Positions 2,336 through 17,167 of a stretch of 49,837 bases of DNA are shown piece after piece. The stretch spans positions 1-49,837 of the forward strand of contig JALGVQ010000003.1 of the NCBI GenBank assembly GCA_025774615.1, in the 5' to 3' direction. The position numbers were made by a program, and so were the translations under genes. The stretch comes from a bacterium. Its GTDB lineage: Bacteria; Blakebacterota; Blakebacteria; Blakebacterales; Blakebacteraceae. Numbering within the stretch: position 1 is the stretch's first letter; every line of letters begins with the position of its first letter. The notes beneath the pieces are model-generated. The model made no database searches and had not been told where the DNA came from. It worked only from the letters and a program-made list of their open reading frames with translations.

Positions 2336-3898
2336 TCAGAGCCCGAAGAAGCGCTGAATACGTCTCAGCAGCACCCGGTCACCGCTCTCACTCTCTTCCG
2401 GTGTACCTGATTCCTCGGTAGCCCGCTCCCGTGTTTCAGTCAGTTCCTGCGTCCGCTGGTAGTAGATCGCTGCCATCTCGGCCGCGACTTCCGGATGCTC
2501 CAGGATGATCCTCGCGAAGGCTTCCTTGTCGATGATCACGATCCGGACATCCTCGATAGCTTTCACTGTCGCCGTGCGCCGGTCTCCGGCAAGCAGACTC
2601 ATCTCACCGAAGAAGTCCCTCGGTCCCAGAACCGCCACCGACGCCTCCACACCCCCCTCTTCAGAGGCCAGGAGTACCTCTACCCGCCCCTGTTCGATGA
2701 CATAGAAGGATTCACCCTCATCACCCTGCTTGACCAGAACCTCTCCACGTCCGAAGAATTTGGGCACCAACCCCTCTGACAGGCTTTCCAGTTGCTGACG
2801 CGTCAGCGGCGTGAAGATATCCACCTGGCGCAGCAGATCGGTAATGGAGTCGGCCGTCTCCTCGATAGTCAGCGTCTCCTCCTGGCGCATGTAGACGTTC
2901 CGGATCGGCCAGGGGATGGTGATGTTGTACCGCTTGAAGACGTACCAGATGTTGGTCAGCACCTCATCGGCGGTCCTCTGCATCTTCTGGTAATCCTTCA
3001 CCCAGAACCGGAGCCGGTAGATGATGGCGCTGCTCCCGTATTCATGGGTCAGAACACGTGGAGGCGGTTGCCGAAGGGCGTCCCCGCACATCAGAATCCC
3101 CTCCATGATGGCACCCTTGACCCGGTTCGGCGGCTCCTTGTACTCGGTACGCACGTAGAGGTCGATCGCAGCGCTCGGTGTGGCCAGGTTGAAGTTGCGG
3201 ATCTCGGCTTTGGCGATCACCGAGTTCGGGATGACAACGCCGACATGCTGACGTGTTTTCAGCCGGATCGCCCGCCAGTTGAGTTCCACGACCTCTCCCT
3301 CATGATCGTCGATCTCCACCCAGTCTCCCTGCCTGAACGGGCGTTCGAACTGGAGCACCACTCCCGAAAAAAGGTCACCAAGTATATTCTGCAGGGCCAG
3401 ACCCAGAACGACGGTGATAACTGCGGCGCTTCCTCCCACCGCGACCGCATTGACGTCAAAGACCTCCACCAGGATAAGGACCAGCGCCAGGACGATGATC
3501 ACCAGGCGGAGGGCATCCCTGAGAAGCTTCGGAACGGCTTCATCCCGGTTAACGAGATAAATCTCGAAAATCAGGGTGTCGATGAGTCGAGCGAAGAGGA
3601 AGGCAGCGACCAGAATAACGGCTGCATCAGCCAACCGTGTCAGAATCACTATCGTTTCACCAGGATCACCAACGGGGCCGATCAGAACCTGCAAGCCAGC
3701 CATAGCCTCCTTCCCCCCGGAACCGAAGAAGATGATGGCGGTGATCAGGATGATGAAGAGGCGGATGGAGCGTTCAAAAAGCCCGAGCCACTCCTTGCGC
3801 AACAGCCAGCGGAGAAGTGCCCAGGCGGGAACCGCAAAAAGGGCGGTGTAGAGGAGAGCCAGCAGGCCCGGCTTCAGTATCTCCAACCAGCTGTTCAT
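2336..3898 (-). CDS. MscS-family mechanosensitive channel fused to cyclic-nucleotide-binding domain
   Basis: The 520-residue product has about four N-terminal transmembrane helices (residues 10-160). The MscS core follows at about 160-340 (ALQNILGDLFSGVVLQFERPF, GDWVEIDDHEGEVVELNWR, VVIPNSVIAKAEIRNFN). A C-terminal cNMP domain at about 355-480 keeps the phosphate-binding cassette (FFGEMSLLAGDRRTATV) with the Glu and Arg that contact cAMP/cGMP. The protein is therefore likely a tension-gated channel tuned by a cyclic nucleotide, as known for the bCNG subfamily; the ligand is inferred. Its ATG overlaps the TGA of the upstream TIM-barrel gene by four bases (ATGA), so it is translationally coupled as the last gene of the mlaE operon. 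Confidence 0.9.
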   Translation of the reverse strand: MNSWLEILKPGLLALLYTALFAVPAWALLRWLLRKEWLGLFERSIRLFIILITAIIFFGSGGKEAMAGLQVLIGPVGDPGETIVILTRLADAAVILVAAFLFARLIDTLIFEIYLVNRDEAVPKLLRDALRLVIIVLALVLILVEVFDVNAVAVGGSAAVITVVLGLALQNILGDLFSGVVLQFERPFRQGDWVEIDDHEGEVVELNWRAIRLKTRQHVGVVIPNSVIAKAEIRNFNLATPSAAIDLYVRTEYKEPPNRVKGAIMEGILMCGDALRQPPPRVLTHEYGSSAIIYRLRFWVKDYQKMQRTADEVLTNIWYVFKRYNITIPWPIRNVYMRQEETLTIEETADSITDLLRQVDIFTPLTRQQLESLSEGLVPKFFGRGEVLVKQGDEGESFYVIEQGRVEVLLASEEGGVEASVAVLGPRDFFGEMSLLAGDRRTATVKAIEDVRIVIIDKEAFARIILEHPEVAAEMAAIYYQRTQELTETRERATEESGTPEESESGDRVLLRRIQRFFGL

Positions 3899-4674
3899 CC
3901 GCGCAATCCGATAGAGCGAAGGAAGCGTATCGACTGGACTGCATTATCCCGGTGCATCTCCAGTACTACGGTCGAATCAAGACACGCCCCACAGAGCTCC
4001 GGCAGGATGGTCGCATAGGGGATCTCACCCTCCCCCAGCGCGAGGTGATCATCACTCTTTCCTTCATTGTCATTGAGATGGAGGTGGGTAATCAGGTGCC
4101 CCATGGTGATGACCCACGCTGACTGGCCATCCCGGCTGTAGAGATGCACATGGGCGGGATCGAAGCACATCCGGGTACGGGCATCGGCGAAGGTATTGAA
4201 AATATCGGTAAAGAACTCGACTGTCGGTTCGTAACTGTTCTCGATACAGACCTCTACTCCCTCCTCCTCAGCGACCCCGTTCAGTTCCGCCCATACCGGC
4301 TTTGAGCGCTCCTTCCAGCCCGGGAGCACACCCGCCGGCAACAGTGGATTATGGAACGTGTGGTATACGATCTTCTGCCCGCCCAGAGCGGCGCAGACCT
4401 CCACACCCTGGATAAAGCAATTCCTGGTATAGTCACGGATAGTCGGATCGAGACTGCCGGGATTGAGGTCGAAGAGTGGTCCGTGCGTTGTCACTGCACC
4501 CGCCCGGTCTTCCAGAGTTTTCCTGATCTTCTCCGCGTCGTCGAGTGCTCCCTTCCCCATCAACCAACTGGTATCATAGAGGGTTACCTCGAGCCCCAGA
4601 CCTTCCTCCTCCACCCAATCGAGCACTGATTCCACCTCATCGAAGGAAACACTCAGCAATAATTGCCCGATCAT
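3895..4674 (-). CDS. Sugar phosphate isomerase/epimerase-like TIM-barrel protein
   Basis: The 259-residue product has the AP-endonuclease-2/xylose-isomerase-like TIM-barrel pattern. Candidate metal ligands appear in order: THGPLFDL near residue 65, CIENSYE, CFDPAHVHLYS, HLHLNDN and VLEMHRD near the end. Family members isomerise or epimerise sugars or inositols, or act as endonuclease IV; the short length and HLNDN/GEGEI motif fit the epimerase-like branch. The substrate cannot be read from the sequence. It overlaps mlaD upstream and the MscS gene downstream by four bases on each side, which ties it to the lipid-transport operon although no known Mla system uses such an enzyme. Confidence 0.85.
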   Translation of the reverse strand: MIGQLLLSVSFDEVESVLDWVEEEGLGLEVTLYDTSWLMGKGALDDAEKIRKTLEDRAGAVTTHGPLFDLNPGSLDPTIRDYTRNCFIQGVEVCAALGGQKIVYHTFHNPLLPAGVLPGWKERSKPVWAELNGVAEEEGVEVCIENSYEPTVEFFTDIFNTFADARTRMCFDPAHVHLYSRDGQSAWVITMGHLITHLHLNDNEGKSDDHLALGEGEIPYATILPELCGACLDSTVVLEMHRDNAVQSIRFLRSIGLRG

Positions 4675-5579
4675 GGGAGTCCCTGCTTTCCCCCGGTCGA
4701 ATCAGGAGGTCGGACCTTGAACAACATCTGCCACATTGAATATCTGTTCATGTCGGCAAGAAGCCGGTGCAGTTCATCGAGTACGGCTTCCATCTGTTCC
4801 AGGTTCCTGTCGATCCGGGGACCTGTTGAATCGAGCATCGAGTCGGCGTTCCTGGTCAGGGCACTGAGGTTGCCGATCAGGGTCAGCGTCGTGTCGAGTG
4901 TCGCCGAAAAGCGCGGACGATTCTCATCGATGACACTGTTGACAAGATCGAGCGAGTGAGCCGCCGATCGCATCGCGTATCGCAGGCTGTCAGCGAGTAC
5001 GACAAGTTCATATTCGAGCAGCGCGAACGTCTCCCTGGCGAACACCATGGTGTTGGTGAACTCATCGATCAGATTCCCCGCTCTCTCAGGATCGAGTATC
5101 TCAGCCAGATTGCTTGCCACGAGTTCGACCGTCTGGGCGAGTGTGTCGGCCCGGCTGATCATCTGGGCGAGTCCGGGAGAGGTGATCTGGGGAAGTATCG
5201 CTCCATCCATGAGACGGGCCCCGGGGAGTTCAGGGATCCGCAGATCCACGACAGCATCACCCACGAGTCCGCCCACGGCGCCGATCGAAGCTGCCGTTCC
5301 TTCGAAGAGGGGAAAATCGGCATCTACCGCCAGGGTCAGATCGAAATAAAAGGGGGTTTCATCAACCACCGGGGTTATCAGCGTGAGCTCACCGACCCGG
5401 TATCCCGATACGTACACGGCGGTGCCCCGACGTACAGCCGGGAGAGTATCCACCTGGATGTGCAGATTGATCTTCTCTTTTTCAAGGATTCCCGCGACCG
5501 TGATGAGCGCGGCTACCACCGCCGCAATGGCCCCGAGAACGAAGAGTCCCAGCGCGAAATCCTGACGCTCGAAATTCAT
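4671..5579 (-). CDS. mlaD: MlaD/MCE-domain substrate-binding protein
   Basis: The 302-residue product has one N-terminal membrane anchor (FALGLFVLGAIAAVVAALITVAGIL). An MCE domain at about 40-125 follows (VDTLPAVRRGTAVYVSGYRVGEL, AASIGAVGGLVGDAVVDL). A long, mostly helical C-terminal region may extend across the periplasm. MCE proteins form hexameric rings that pass lipids between inner and outer membrane with an MlaE permease and an MlaF ATPase. It is longer than E. coli MlaD (about 180 residues) and nearer to other MCE proteins with helical tails. It starts two bases after the degenerate ATPase gene and overlaps the TIM-barrel gene by four bases. Confidence 0.9.
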   Translation of the reverse strand: MNFERQDFALGLFVLGAIAAVVAALITVAGILEKEKINLHIQVDTLPAVRRGTAVYVSGYRVGELTLITPVVDETPFYFDLTLAVDADFPLFEGTAASIGAVGGLVGDAVVDLRIPELPGARLMDGAILPQITSPGLAQMISRADTLAQTVELVASNLAEILDPERAGNLIDEFTNTMVFARETFALLEYELVVLADSLRYAMRSAAHSLDLVNSVIDENRPRFSATLDTTLTLIGNLSALTRNADSMLDSTGPRIDRNLEQMEAVLDELHRLLADMNRYSMWQMLFKVRPPDSTGGKQGLP

Positions 5580-5581
5580 AT

Positions 5582-6412
5582 TCAGGACGCCTCTTTCTGT
5601 TCCAGAATGTCAGTCGGGTGGCTCATTCCCCTCCGGTCGTACTCCCGGGGGTTCTCATTGAAGACCACCCTGCCTTGATCGATGATGATAAGTCGGTCCA
5701 CGTATCTGAATAAACCCTCATGCAGTCCCTGTGAAGTGATAAGTACCCCGGGGTTCGCCGGTCTCGGATCATGGCCGATCCACTCGGGAGGCGTGGGACC
5801 GAATGCGAGATCGAGCAGTTCACTCCCCGACGAGCTGTCTATATCCATCAGGGGGTCTTCCAGAATCAGGAAGGGCGGCCGCATGGCCCATGCCCGGGCC
5901 AGCGCGACCCGCTTGCGGGATGCTTCATCCAGTTCCGCGGGACGGAGTTGACAGATTTCTCTGAGACGACAGCGGTCGATCAGCGGTTCAATGCGTTCCG
6001 TTACTCCCTGTACGTCGGTGAAGCGGGTATGGTAGAGCGCCGGGAGCGCCACATTATACCAGACGGTGAGGTTGTGTATCAGACCACTGTTGTGGAAGAG
6101 GTAGCCAACCATATGACGTAGTGCCAGTCGCTGACGCTCACTGAGGTCGTGATGGATCGTGCCCAGCAGTTCCATCTCCCCTTCATCCTGGGTTTCCACA
6201 CCGATAGCGATCCTGGGCACCAGGCGGGCACACCACTCCGATTCGACGATAAGCGCCACGATCTCTCCACCGATGACCTCGAAATTCAGTCCTTCGAACA
6301 GAATCTCGTCTCCATGTGAGGCCCGGAGATCTCTGCAGGTGAGAACCGGCCGCCCCTCGAACGCCGATCCACCGTCACCGATCACTTCTGATAATGTGGT
6401 ATCCCGTTTCAC
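5582..6412 (-). CDS. Degenerate ABC ATPase-like protein of MCE transporter (pseudo-MlaF)
   Basis: The position between mlaE and mlaD, the 276-residue length and motifs such as VGYLFHNSGLIHNLTVW and SRKRVALARA identify an MlaF-type ABC subunit. Every catalytic motif is altered. The Walker A position reads VESEWCAR (no glycines; Lys replaced by Ala62 and Thr by Arg63). The Q-loop Gln is His107. The LSGGQ signature is LDEAS. Walker B ends LILEDP, with the DE pair swapped. The H-loop reads ITSQ, without His. The frame is open throughout and neighbouring frames contain no intact P-loop, so this is not a simple frameshift. GTG start at 6412 with GAGG 8 bases upstream. It probably binds the permease without hydrolysing ATP; an active ATPase would have to be encoded elsewhere. 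Confidence 0.85.
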   Translation of the reverse strand: MKRDTTLSEVIGDGGSAFEGRPVLTCRDLRASHGDEILFEGLNFEVIGGEIVALIVESEWCARLVPRIAIGVETQDEGEMELLGTIHHDLSERQRLALRHMVGYLFHNSGLIHNLTVWYNVALPALYHTRFTDVQGVTERIEPLIDRCRLREICQLRPAELDEASRKRVALARAWAMRPPFLILEDPLMDIDSSSGSELLDLAFGPTPPEWIGHDPRPANPGVLITSQGLHEGLFRYVDRLIIIDQGRVVFNENPREYDRRGMSHPTDILEQKEAS

Positions 6413-6425
6413 CTATTCGACCTCA

Positions 6426-7244
6426 TCAGTAGTAAAAGAGCACCGAGACGATCGCGGATGCCAGGAACACGAGCGCAAGACATTCCACGACGGCACGCGT
6501 CGTCGCCTTCGGTACATCGGTTGGGGCGCCCCTGACCACCAGCCCGTGGAAGGACGGGAGCAGCGCGATGATCGCCCCGAAGAGCATCCCTTTCAGACCG
6601 GTGACCCAGAGATCGGCAATAGTCGCCTGATCGATGATGTAGGTGAGATAGGTACCCAGACTCATGCTGGTGGTCATCTGCGCGGCGAGAAATCCAAAGA
6701 GGATCGCGACGACATCGAAATAGACCACCAGGCACATGGTAGCCAGGGTTACACCTACGAGCCGCGGAAACACCACGTAGTGAAGCGGATCGATCCCCAT
6801 CGTCTCCAGGGCGGTTATCTCCTCCATCACCTGATTGGTGCCGAGTTCGGCGGCGATTGCGGTCCCTGATCGTCCGATTACCACCACAGCTGTCATCAGG
6901 GGACCGAGTTCCCTGATCACGGCGGCGACGAAGACCATACCGATGATCCCCTCGAATCCGACCTTCGAGGCCTGACTCAGTGTCTGGATGACGATCAGCG
7001 CGGAGATGGCGGCAGAGATAAAGGTCAGGAAGGGCAGCGCCTGCAGTCCGGTGAACTTGAGCTGATTGAGAATGACGCGCCAGGTGTATCCGATACCGTG
7101 AGAGCCGAGCCGGAAAAGCACGCCTCCCACCTGAGCGGCGAATCTGACCTTGTTGGAGATCCGCTTCAGAGAGGTTCGGGTTCGGGTTCCCACCCTCCCC
7201 ACAAAACCGGTAATTCCGTTTGCTGAAACAGGTGCGCTGGACAT
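6426..7244 (-). CDS. mlaE: MlaE-family lipid transport permease
   Basis: The 272-residue product has about five transmembrane segments. It carries the MlaE family core: FISAAISALIVIQTL, FVAAVIRELGPLMTAVVVIGRSGTAIAAELG, then EEITALETMGIDPLHYVVFPRLVG. MlaE is the inner-membrane channel of MCE lipid transporters and pairs with an ATPase and an MCE ring. It is the first gene of the operon. There is no Shine-Dalgarno sequence before the ATG. Instead a TTGCCG-N18-TATACT promoter ends 8 bases upstream, suggesting a leaderless message. The next gene follows after 13 bases. Confidence 0.92.
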   Translation of the reverse strand: MSSAPVSANGITGFVGRVGTRTRTSLKRISNKVRFAAQVGGVLFRLGSHGIGYTWRVILNQLKFTGLQALPFLTFISAAISALIVIQTLSQASKVGFEGIIGMVFVAAVIRELGPLMTAVVVIGRSGTAIAAELGTNQVMEEITALETMGIDPLHYVVFPRLVGVTLATMCLVVYFDVVAILFGFLAAQMTTSMSLGTYLTYIIDQATIADLWVTGLKGMLFGAIIALLPSFHGLVVRGAPTDVPKATTRAVVECLALVFLASAIVSVLFYY

Positions 7245-13222: not shown

Positions 13223-14347
13223 CTAGCGCGCCCGCTTCCGGAACCGGAGAGCCGCTAGCGCCATCGCCACCGGACCCAGGATCATCAATCCCATCGTCTC
13301 CACCCGGAACGACATCATACCGCTGCCCTTCAGGAAAAGTTCGCGTACCACCGCCATGAAATATCGAAGCGGATTCAGGTACGTGAGTCGCTGCATCAGG
13401 AGCGGCATGTTCTCGATAGGGAAGAAGAAGCCCGACATGAGGATCCCGAAGATGAGGAGGAACCAGACCATGAAGACCGCCTGCTGCTGGGTGTGGGCGA
13501 CCGTACTCACCAGCAGTCCCATTCCGAGCGTGTTGAGCAGGAAGAGAAGCGAGAAGAGAACCAGCAGAGTCCATGATCCCCGCATCGGAACGCCGAACCA
13601 GACGAGACAGACCGTCAGGGCGATCGCGAGCACGAAGAAGGCGATGAGGACGAAGGGAAGAATCTTTCCCAGGAGCAGTTCCACGGTTCGTATCGGTGTC
13701 ACTGAGAGCTGTTCGAGGGTTCCTGTTTCACGTTCCCGTACCAGTCCGAGACCGGTCATGAGTGTTGTGAGCATGGTGAGCAGAACGACCACCACGCCGG
13801 GGATCATGTAGAATCGGCTGATGAGTTCAGGATTGTAGAGCACGTGTATTCTCGGCCGCAGGTCGGGAAGAGGTGTCCCGACAAGAGTCTTGCGCAGGAC
13901 ATCGAGGGAATACGACTCCACGATCCCACGGGCATGGTTGAATGCGATAAGGGACGCGTTGGAATCCACTCCATCGAGCAGCAGCTGCACATCGACCGAC
14001 TCATTTCGACCGAGCCTGCGGGCGAACCCCCGGGGGATCACGAGCACCGCCGCGACCTCTCCCCGATCGAGCGCGTCCCTGATCTCATCCGGACCGCTCA
14101 TCACCCGATCGAGGTCGAAGGTCTCATTATGCCGGAAGTCCTCCACGAGCTGCCTGCTCTCGGGCGATCGATCGTAGTCCATTACCCCGAGTGAGAGGTC
14201 CCGGACATCCACCGTGATCGCGTATCCCAGCAGGAGCACCTGGATGACCGGCATGATGAACATCATGCCGAGCATCTGATGATCCCGGAAGGCCTGGATG
14301 AACTCCTTCCGGATGAGATGGCCTATGATCCGCAGGCTCTTCAACAT
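13223..14347 (-). CDS. ybhR: ABC-2 permease, YbhR-like
   Basis: The 374-residue product has one N-terminal transmembrane helix, a periplasmic domain of about 140 residues (LSLGVMDYDRSPESRQLVEDF, VIPRGFARRL) and five or six C-terminal helices. The conserved ABC-2 loop VRERETGTLEQLSVTPI lies in the middle. This architecture is that of YbhR/YbhS-type exporter permeases. It is the last gene of the exporter operon, two bases after its paralogue, with which it should form a heterodimer fed by two ATPases and the fusion protein. Confidence 0.88.
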   Translation of the reverse strand: MLKSLRIIGHLIRKEFIQAFRDHQMLGMMFIMPVIQVLLLGYAITVDVRDLSLGVMDYDRSPESRQLVEDFRHNETFDLDRVMSGPDEIRDALDRGEVAAVLVIPRGFARRLGRNESVDVQLLLDGVDSNASLIAFNHARGIVESYSLDVLRKTLVGTPLPDLRPRIHVLYNPELISRFYMIPGVVVVLLTMLTTLMTGLGLVRERETGTLEQLSVTPIRTVELLLGKILPFVLIAFFVLAIALTVCLVWFGVPMRGSWTLLVLFSLLFLLNTLGMGLLVSTVAHTQQQAVFMVWFLLIFGILMSGFFFPIENMPLLMQRLTYLNPLRYFMAVVRELFLKGSGMMSFRVETMGLMILGPVAMALAALRFRKRAR

Positions 14348-14349
14348 GG

Positions 14350-15498
14350 TCAGTCGAGCCTCGGCTTGAAGCGGGCTATGCTCACAACGGTGAGTATTAC
14401 GGTGAGGGCCAGGAGGAAGAGGCCGTTCTCCCAGAAGACGTCGGCACCGACACCTTTGAGCAGCACACCGCGAACGATCGGTATGTAATAGGTCGCCGGA
14501 ACCACTCGACTGATAAGCTGCAGGAACACCGGCATGCTCTTGACCGGAAAGATGAAGTTGGAGAGCATGAACGCCGGCAGCACGGTCACGAGCATCGCAC
14601 CAAACATCGCTACCCGTTGCTGGTCCACGAGGGTCGAGATGAGGAGCCCGATGGTGAGTGCAGCCATGATGTACAATCCTGTGAAACCGAAGAGTACGAG
14701 GAGACTGCCGCGAATGGGAACGCCGAATACCATCGCTCCGAAGAAAAGGATGAACGCGCCGTCCGCCATGGCGAGTACGCCGTAGGGCAGCAGTTTGCCG
14801 ACGATCAGCTCTCCCGGCCTGACCGGACTCACCAGGAGCTGTTCGAGGGTTCCTGTTTCCTTCTCACGGACAACGGTCGCGCTCGTCAGCAGCGCTGATG
14901 CCATCATCAGGATCACCGCGATCAGAGCGGGCACGATGAAGTGGCTGCTCTTCTGCTCCGGGTTGTACCAGAAGCGGGGATGAAGTTCGATCGGCAGGCC
15001 TTCCCATCCGACTGCGGAACCTGACCTGTCCCTTACCACCGAGAGGGCGTTCATCGATCCTTCGATCGTCACGCGGGAGATGATGCCCTGCGCGTATCCG
15101 AGGGCAAGCGAGGCAGTATTGGGATCTGAACCGTCCACGAGGAGTCCGAGCGGGCGCTCGGGCCCCCCATCCAGTGAACGGGAGAACCCGCGCGGTATCA
15201 CCAGCGTGAGAACCGTTTCCCGAAAACTGAATCCCTCCTCCGCATCACCCATGTCCCGGTAGCGTCCGGCAAGAACGAACTGCCCCGATGCGAGGAACGA
15301 GGTGGTCAGCTCCCTCGATGCTGGAGTGCTGTCCTGATCGACCACTCCCAGAGGGATATCCTTGATATCGAAATTCATGGCATATCCGTAGAGGAAGGTC
15401 ATCACCACCGGCATGATGAAGATGATCATCAGACTCCGGGAATCCCGCACGATGTGACGGAACTCCTTGGCCATGACCGCAATGGTTCGCCCGATCAC
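14350..15498 (-). CDS. ybhS: ABC-2 permease, YbhS-like
   Basis: The 382-residue paralogue of the following permease has the same plan: N-terminal helix, periplasmic domain (IPLGVVDQDSTPASRELTTSF, LVIPRGFSRSL), VREKETGTLEQLLVSPVRP and a C-terminal membrane block. It overlaps the second ATPase gene by four bases and ends two bases before the ybhR-like gene. In E. coli the order ybhG-ybhF-ybhS-ybhR encodes an exporter for cationic drugs; substrates here are unknown. Confidence 0.88.
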   Translation of the reverse strand: MIGRTIAVMAKEFRHIVRDSRSLMIIFIMPVVMTFLYGYAMNFDIKDIPLGVVDQDSTPASRELTTSFLASGQFVLAGRYRDMGDAEEGFSFRETVLTLVIPRGFSRSLDGGPERPLGLLVDGSDPNTASLALGYAQGIISRVTIEGSMNALSVVRDRSGSAVGWEGLPIELHPRFWYNPEQKSSHFIVPALIAVILMMASALLTSATVVREKETGTLEQLLVSPVRPGELIVGKLLPYGVLAMADGAFILFFGAMVFGVPIRGSLLVLFGFTGLYIMAALTIGLLISTLVDQQRVAMFGAMLVTVLPAFMLSNFIFPVKSMPVFLQLISRVVPATYYIPIVRGVLLKGVGADVFWENGLFLLALTVILTVVSIARFKPRLD

Positions 15499-16244
15499 GA
15501 CGCGTCCTCCCCTGTGCCGGCCACATTCAGAAAGACCTCTTCCATGGTCGCGACCTGATGGGTGTTCCGGAGCTCATCAGGAGATCCGACTGCCACGATC
15601 CGCCCATCCCGCATGATGCCGAGACGATGGCAGTATTCGGCCTCATCCATGTAGTGGGTGGTTACCATGACGGTCACCCCGGCCGAGGCCAGGTCCGATA
15701 TCACCCGCCAGAAGGTGCGCCTGGCCACCGGATCGATCCCTCCCGTTGGTTCATCGAGAAAGAGCAGCGGTGGTTCATGGACGAGCGCTGAGGCCAGCGC
15801 CAACCGCTGACGGTGTCCTGTCGGCAGACTCGAGGTGATCCGATCCGCCATATCCTTGAGATCGAACAGATCGAGTAACGCCTCCTTTCTTCGCCTGAGA
15901 TCAGGTCTCCGGAGGCCATATACGCCGCCGAAAAAGGTAAGGTTCTCCGCGACGGTAAGATCTTCATAGAGGGAGAAGCGTTGCGACATGTATCCCAGCC
16001 TGTGCTTCACCTTCTCCGGTGAGGAATGGACCGGTATGCCAGCCACCCACGCCTCTCCCCTGCTTGGTTTGAGGAGTCCAGTGAGCATCCGGATCGTGGT
16101 GGTCTTGCCCGCCCCGTTTGCCCCCAGCAGACCGAATATCTCCCCCTTCCGAACCTGGAGCGAGACACTGTCAACGGCGATGAATCGCCTGAAGGTGCGG
16201 GTGAGCTCACGCGTCTCGATCGCGATTGTCTCTGGAGGAGTCAC
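15495..16244 (-). CDS. ABC exporter ATPase, equivalent to C-terminal half of YbhF
   Basis: The 249-residue nucleotide-binding domain has Walker A GANGAGKTT, Q-loop YMSQRFSLYEDLTV, signature-region LPTGHRQRLALASAL, Walker B PLLFLDEPTGG and H-loop MVTTHYMDEAEYC with an intact His. The LPTGHRQ signature is the divergent type typical of the second YbhF domain. It overlaps both neighbours by four bases. In E. coli two such domains are fused in YbhF; here they are separate proteins, and this one carries the complete catalytic set. Confidence 0.9.
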   Translation of the reverse strand: MTPPETIAIETRELTRTFRRFIAVDSVSLQVRKGEIFGLLGANGAGKTTTIRMLTGLLKPSRGEAWVAGIPVHSSPEKVKHRLGYMSQRFSLYEDLTVAENLTFFGGVYGLRRPDLRRRKEALLDLFDLKDMADRITSSLPTGHRQRLALASALVHEPPLLFLDEPTGGIDPVARRTFWRVISDLASAGVTVMVTTHYMDEAEYCHRLGIMRDGRIVAVGSPDELRNTHQVATMEEVFLNVAGTGEDAS

Positions 16245-17167
16245 GCCGTGTCCGCTCCTCTGGCCAGGGCCACAAAGACATCCTCCATACCGGGTGAGGC
16301 GGTCTGTACTGTACCTACCTCCACTCCCTCACCGCTCAGGGCCGCTCTCATTTCATCCAGGTCCTCCCGCCCACCCTCCACCGTGAGATGGAGCCTGGTA
16401 CCGAAGGGCACCACGTCACCGATCCAGTCAATTTGTTCCAGTATTCGCATGGCCCGACCGACCGGTCGCGCCTCGATCTCGATGATCTCATGCGGAAAAC
16501 GCGACCTCAGTTCCACCGGGGTTCCGCGATCGAGGATGATCCCATCACTGAGGACAAGAACCTCATCACACCGGTCCGCCTCATCCATGTAGGGAGTGCT
16601 GACGAGTATGGTGGTACCATCGGCCTTCAGCTCGAGGAGGATCTGCCACAGCTCCATCCGGGATATCGGGTCCACGCCGGTCGTCGGCTCATCGAGGAGG
16701 AGGATCTCAGGGGTGTGGATCAACGTGCATGCCAGGGCCAGCTTCTGCTTCATGCCACCAGAGAGCGCTGACGCCCGACGGCGACGGAAGGACGTCAACC
16801 GGGCGAAATGGAGCAACTGTTCGGTGCGCTCGCGGCGTTCCCGGCCGCGCACCCCGAAGATGTTGGCATAGAACTTCAGGTTCTCTTCCACGCTCAGGTC
16901 GTGATAGAGACTGAACCGCTGCGGCATGTAACCGATACGGCCGCTGGAGGCACGCATACCGGTCACATCCTCTCCACCCAGCAGGATTCGCCCTTCATCA
17001 GGGCGAAGCAGACCGGTCAGCAGCCGCATGGCCGTCGTCTTTCCCGCTCCATTGGGACCGAGCATTCCGGTGATGGTGCCCCGCTCGAGACCGATATCGA
17101 GGTGTGAAAGGGCCTCGACCGACCCGTATGATTTCGAAAGTGACTCCGTGGAAAAGACGTACTTCAT
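16241..17167 (-). CDS. ABC exporter ATPase, equivalent to N-terminal half of YbhF
   Basis: The 308-residue protein has Walker A GPNGAGKTT, Q-loop YMPQRFSLYHDLSV, signature LSGGMKQKLALA and Walker B EILLLDEPTTG. The H-loop is LVSTPYMDEADRC, with Pro where catalytic His is expected. An accessory domain fills the last 80 residues. The same loss is typical of the first domain of YbhF-type ATPases, so an asymmetric pair with the downstream ATPase is likely, each of the two composite sites using motifs from both proteins. It overlaps the fusion-protein gene by four bases. Confidence 0.9.
   Translation of the reverse strand: MKYVFSTESLSKSYGSVEALSHLDIGLERGTITGMLGPNGAGKTTAMRLLTGLLRPDEGRILLGGEDVTGMRASSGRIGYMPQRFSLYHDLSVEENLKFYANIFGVRGRERRERTEQLLHFARLTSFRRRRASALSGGMKQKLALACTLIHTPEILLLDEPTTGVDPISRMELWQILLELKADGTTILVSTPYMDEADRCDEVLVLSDGIILDRGTPVELRSRFPHEIIEIEARPVGRAMRILEQIDWIGDVVPFGTRLHLTVEGGREDLDEMRAALSGEGVEVGTVQTASPGMEDVFVALARGADTA

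Follow-up and report, generated by a model that had tools for sequence, protein, structure and literature searches.

The window, by which we mean the whole 49,837-nucleotide stretch of Blakebacteraceae DNA analyzed here, carries on its minus strand an operon-like set of mlaE, mlaF-like and putative mlaD genes with two further genes close behind. The features to which we refer are listed below in the direction of transcription; clade N and the related genomes G002 and G003 are described in later sections.

6426 to 7244, minus strand: MlaE-family permease of clade N, with the diagnostic residues Pro245, Thr65 and Ala69 (PF02405, 202.7 bits; tree)
6780 to 6824, minus strand: coupling-helix segment of this MlaE, EEITALETMGIDPLH, kept (alignment including YrbE1A)
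5582 to 6412, minus strand: pseudo-ATPase of 276 amino acids, a degenerate MlaF-like NBD (pseudo-MlaF), with a GTG start and an intact open reading frame
6221 to 6247, minus strand: former Walker A, residues 56-64, VESEWCARL (canonical GPSGxGKST; alignment and model)
6020 to 6106, minus strand: Q-loop and coupling-helix groove segment, GYLFHNSGLIHNLTVWYNVALPALYHTRF (28/29 residues shared by all three genomes)
6071 to 6073, minus strand: Asn114, the marker residue of clade N NBDs (50/50 versus 0/49)
5918 to 5932, minus strand: former ABC signature, residues 161-165, LDEAS (canonical LSGGM; alignment)
5852 to 5866, minus strand: former Walker B, residues 183-187, ILEDP (canonical hydrophobic-DEP; alignment)
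5747 to 5794, minus strand: family-specific insert, TPPEWIGHDPRPANPG, ahead of the H-loop strand (alignment)
5729 to 5737, minus strand: former H-loop, residues 226-228, TSQ (canonical THD; the 18 surrounding residues identical in three genomes)
4671 to 5579, minus strand: putative MlaD/MCE-domain protein of 302 amino acids (PF02470, 21.3 bits against a gathering score of 25.1)
3895 to 4674, minus strand: xylose-isomerase-like TIM-barrel protein, with a 4-bp overlap with mlaD; a neighbour in G002 and G003 too (domain search)
2336 to 3898, minus strand: MscS-type channel with a cyclic-nucleotide-binding domain, a conserved neighbour (domain search)

A degenerate MlaF in the mlaF position

The initial annotation took the gene at 5582-6412 to occupy the slot of mlaF and to have kept its family homology, and both statements hold: it lies between mlaE, which ends 13 bp upstream, and mlaD, which starts 2 bp downstream, and its product matches solved MlaF both in sequence (6z5u_K, 2.3e-16, phmmer with pseudo-MlaF as query) and in fold. 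In a PDB fold search with an AF2 model of the protein (mean pLDDT 87.9), E. coli MlaF 6xgz came first (1.9e-18), and MlaF chains gave TM scores of 0.71-0.76. Pseudo-MlaF is a member of the ABC NBD fold and of the MlaF lineage. It reaches 57 bits against the NCBIfam MlaF profile, the cut-off of which is 441, and Pfam ABC_tran covers only residues 67-188 (35.8 bits), the match beginning past the P-loop.

Motifs were called from profile alignments against canonical MlaF, and these agree with the earlier reading that none of the five motifs (Walker A, Q-loop, signature, Walker B, H-loop) is unaltered. The Walker A Lys and Ser/Thr are absent from VESEWCARL, the Q-loop Gln has become His107 (LFHNS), and the AF2 model places a helix, starting at residue 59, at the position of the P-loop. 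With all five nucleotide motifs gone, pseudo-MlaF cannot, judging from its sequence, act as a normal ATPase.

By its PF02405 match and its coupling helix, the permease encoded upstream is a member of the MlaE family, scoring 150 bits against the NCBIfam TIGR00056 cut-off of 212. The protein encoded at 4671-5579 is matched by the NCBIfam models for the MCE family (TIGR00996, 2.2e-10) and for MlaD (1e-7), in each case under the model's own cut-off. At 2336-3898 (minus strand), a cyclic-nucleotide-binding domain is fused to an MscS-type mechanosensitive channel; the gene apparently belongs to one transcript with the mla genes and is conserved in G003.

Elsewhere in the window, an ABC-2 exporter operon at 13223-17167 (minus strand) encodes two permeases, two NBDs, an HlyD-like protein and a TetR-like regulator. 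One of its NBDs (15495-16244) has the signature LPTGH and an intact H-loop, the other (16241-17167) the signature LSGGM and the H-loop STP. The two are thus degenerate in a complementary manner, leaving one composite site complete, in contrast to pseudo-MlaF.

Conservation and selection in related genomes

Orthologues of the window gene (genome G000) with 60-64% identity are found in two further genomes of the same family, G002 and G003, where the adjacent MlaE is 73-74% identical to that of the window. The search for the same substitutions in relatives thus gave a positive result, the replacement residues VESEW[CA]ARL, LFHNS, LDE[AS][ST], EDPLM[DN]ID and TSQG being common to all three genomes, and this sharing is, on the alignments, far beyond chance. 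Gene order in G002 and G003 is also that of the window (GAF-GGDEF, TIM barrel, MscS), the longer contig adding the 1032-2255 and FecR proteins. In a GTDB contig scan with the pseudo-NBD, the hits were all unrelated ABC proteins (23-31% identity).

The G002/G003 pair gives pseudo-MlaF an omega (dN/dS) of 0.15, with a 2dlnL of 112 against omega=1. Two more lineages with catalytically dead NBDs gave omega values of 0.03-0.07. Since dS is saturated between the window and G002/G003, usable omega values come only from the G002/G003, f17 and f285 pairs, several of them with dS above 2. Conservation across the three genomes is uneven, with 28/29 residues identical in the groove segment, 18/18 in the replaced H-loop region and 12/16 in the replaced Walker A, compared with 54% over the whole protein. 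By homology to MlaF, from which the position of the coupling-helix groove was also assigned, pseudo-MlaF seems to owe its retention to docking and to a new surface at the old ATP site.

The degenerate motifs by themselves would suit a decaying pseudogene, or an assembly or frame error. We regard such an origin as extremely improbable and reject it, given the strong rejection of omega=1, the intact reading frame in three genomes, and the substitutions and gene order that these share. The outcomes that would have pointed that way, namely orthologues with intact motifs beside an assembly error here, or a dN/dS near 1, did not materialize: all three genomes lack the same motifs, no orthologue with them intact was found, and the dN/dS obtained falls well short of 1. 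The earlier suggestion that the frame is intact and the gene kept as a protein is therefore well borne out.

A wider MlaE clade with non-canonical NBDs

The MlaE loci of 486 further screened genomes were read for an adjacent NBD. These loci were picked by similarity to the MlaE of the window or of genome G019, so the frequencies given here describe the sample and are not prevalence estimates; the genomes are mostly metagenome bins, that of the window being 82% complete. The window MlaE falls in a clade, here called clade N, which holds 61 rows of a quick tree (SH-aLRT 100) and 49 rows of a careful tree (UFBoot 100, SH-aLRT 100, stem 0.95). A canonical adjacent NBD was found in 0 of the 61 clade N rows. 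The signature is altered (e.g. LSMGQ, LSTGE) with the Walker B Asp-Glu retained in 23, Walker A is retained with catalytic residues lost in 11 (e.g. G019: WDNP, H to D), and the NBD is fully degenerate in 16, so that 27 rows show catalytic loss; in the remaining 11 of the 61, no adjacent NBD was detected. Outside clade N, the NBD is canonical in 47/48 rows having one adjacent. The sole exception there, L107 (G297), has the signature EVSIGM with the remaining motifs intact. Mapped onto the careful tree, the Walker A Lys or Walker B Glu was lost in 6 changes, at least 4 of which are forced by well-supported branches.

Two residues mark the clade independently of each other and agree with its tree. 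The groove residue of the NBD is Asn in 50/50 clade N NBDs and in 0/49 others (Ser in 47/49 of these), and the MlaE Pro corresponding to Pro245 of the window is present in 61/61 clade N proteins versus 0/56 others. The window locus has its MlaE in the 100/100 clade, the groove Asn and the MlaE Pro245, and stands, on this placement, at the far end of a large MlaE/NBD group whose NBDs are non-canonical or dead.

Phylum-level searches place G045, G149 and G336 in separate phyla, sampled here by 2, 19 and 24 genomes respectively, and with G019, whose phylum is taken as Spirochaetota, and the window's own group, clade N is present in at least 5 phyla. Its distribution is patchy: the relatives G517 and G519 of G336 are likewise degenerate, whereas in the phylum of G149 clade N occurs in 1/19 genomes. 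Clade N is thus, as far as sequences and trees can tell, a previously unflagged branch of transporters spanning at least five phyla, with repeated catalytic loss. The survey and tree also reject the view of the locus as a lone oddity of one operon, which the initial annotation had implied.

In Leptospirales-type Spirochaetota, six loci (L121-L125 and L128, in G452, G438, G458, G431, G478 and G400) have a clade N MlaE with no adjoining NBD or MlaD. The MlaE of L124 and that of L128 are each followed by a gene resembling dihydrolipoamide acyltransferases.

A canonical Mla system in the same genomes

The proposal to look for a second, intact mlaF was rewarded within the window genome itself, where G000:C178 carries an intact mlaEF. 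MlaE was counted in 40 genomes. Wherever the clade N NBD is catalytically dead, the genome has another MlaE locus (24/24 scored), while a second MlaE is missing from 5/11 genomes whose clade N NBD keeps its catalytic residues, a difference (Fisher p=0.0014) that is not significant after correction for relatedness, the three phylogenetically independent pairs all lying in the expected direction. There is thus a hint that a dead NBD is tied to a second MlaE system. Most of the partner loci fetched have an intact MlaF, including those of G000, G002, G019, G045, G126, G149, G172, G263 and G336; for some second MlaE copies (e.g. G433, G465, G475), no NBD lies inside the stretch taken. In G305, G388, G411 and G422, a clade N MlaE with intact Walker A/B is the sole MlaE of the genome.

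At one locus, L182 (G436:C292), it is the NBD of the second MlaE that is degenerate (GHSDKERTL and GLDNT, yet LIDEP), and the Walker motifs are intact at the clade N locus of the same genome.

Discussion

The window operon resembles MlaFEDB in its E-F-D gene content and order, its MlaE fold family, its putative MCE protein and its NBD fold, and differs in an NBD without the five nucleotide motifs, in an MlaE from a separate clade and in the lack of adjacent MlaB, MlaC and MlaA. MCE lipid transport without an ABC ATPase of its own is familiar from PqiABC and LetAB/YebST, but PqiA and LetA are not MlaE-type permeases and these systems have no NBD-like subunit. The operons of mycobacterial Mce1 and Mce4 likewise supply no working ATPase of their own, relying on MceG, but they contain no NBD gene, whereas the window operon keeps a conserved dead one. 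Heterodimeric exporters with one degenerate site (PMC7756269) also have degenerate NBD motifs under selection; they keep one complete composite site, however, and a dimer containing pseudo-MlaF would have none. The three-component MlaEFD of diderms (Veillonella parvula), as described in the excerpted text of PMC10665443, is a minimal E-F-D operon without MlaABC, as is that of the window; the same excerpt reports MlaDE duplications and transfers and uncertain MlaF annotation in the Gracilicutes, but treats the ATPase as normal and makes no mention of a dead MlaF. In the open-licence papers searched, we found no published description of a degenerate or pseudo MlaF, in line with the initial annotation, which knew of none.

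We suggest, with a probability of roughly 55%, that pseudo-MlaF is a structural, nucleotide-independent subunit of an MlaE-MlaD lipid conduit that works beside an ATP-driven Mla system. A structural role for the NBD is favored by the motif loss, the fold, purifying selection, the groove, the distinct MlaE clade and the intact Mla elsewhere in the genome. Pseudo-MlaF would bind its own MlaE dimer at the cytoplasmic coupling helices and keep the MlaE-pseudoMlaF-MlaD complex together. Because the complex would hydrolyze no ATP at its own NBD, phospholipid would move passively down its gradient, with the MCE (MlaD) channel at one end and the inner membrane at the other, while a second, ATP-driven MlaEFD system would run in the same cell. 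MlaD has been reported to hand lipid to MlaC in vitro without ATP (review PMC10212509). In E. coli MlaF, K47R abolishes both ATPase activity and in vivo function (PMC5016091), and MceG Walker B mutants make Mce1 and Mce4 unstable (PMC9947336); a dead NBD is thus not tolerated in known systems, and clade N must, on the structural reading, have compensated.

It seems to us unlikely that the clade N MlaE and its pseudo-NBD instead assemble with the canonical MlaE and MlaF of the other locus into a heteromer whose dead NBD is the half without catalysis, an arrangement with parallels in the YrbEA/YrbEB pair of Mce systems and in heterodimeric ABC exporters. Such a partner is on hand in all 24 dead-NBD genomes, usually with an intact MlaF, and both the NBD groove and the MlaE coupling helix are kept. 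The pseudo-NBD, however, lacks the Walker A/B half as well as the signature half of a site, so that by site geometry neither composite site would be complete, whereas known degenerate-site ABCs retain one full site; the classical degenerate-site model is therefore improbable here. The four sole-MlaE genomes with intact Walker A/B suggest moreover that the ancestral clade N system was self-sufficient, and the Asn/Ser split of the groove suggests that each NBD fits its own MlaE.

The same split (50/50 Asn in clade N, 47/49 Ser in others) argues against a borrowed ATPase, in which the canonical MlaF of G000:C178 would drive the clade N MlaE while the pseudo-NBD regulates by competing for or releasing the docking site, as does the persistence of the pseudo-NBD beside its own MlaE in nearly all clade members. 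We consider this still less likely, even though one ATPase, MceG, serves both Mce1 and Mce4 in mycobacteria (PMC9947336) and an intact MlaF exists in the window genome. The lowest standing among these alternatives goes to a regulatory or sensory subunit, whose conserved surface at the old ATP site would bind another ligand or protein and gate the transporter. The conserved replaced motifs (Walker A 12/16, H-loop 18/18), the family-specific insert and, among the neighbors, both the GAF-GGDEF protein and the MscS channel with its cyclic-nucleotide-binding domain would suit such a role, but a nucleotide-free dimer interface explains the surface conservation equally well. Among the three functions that the initial annotation had put forward, ATP-independent transport with a structural subunit fits best, and a borrowed ATPase fits less well, the groove being specific to the clade's own NBD.

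Extending the structural reading beyond the window is more tentative, at somewhat short of even odds: a class of MlaE-type MCE systems in several phyla may repeatedly have dropped ATP hydrolysis and kept the NBD as a structural part, giving ATP-free conduits beside ATP-driven Mla pumps. Both the direction in which phospholipids travel between the inner and outer membranes and the source of the energy that moves them are disputed, with retrograde ATP-driven and ATP-independent anterograde transport both argued (PMC10212509). Genes annotated as mlaF from synteny cannot be presumed to encode ATPases. A natural lineage that is without the ATP machinery but has kept the architecture offers a direct test of the roles of the NBD besides hydrolysis, and clade N would also allow passive lipid conduction by MlaE-MlaD to be tested.
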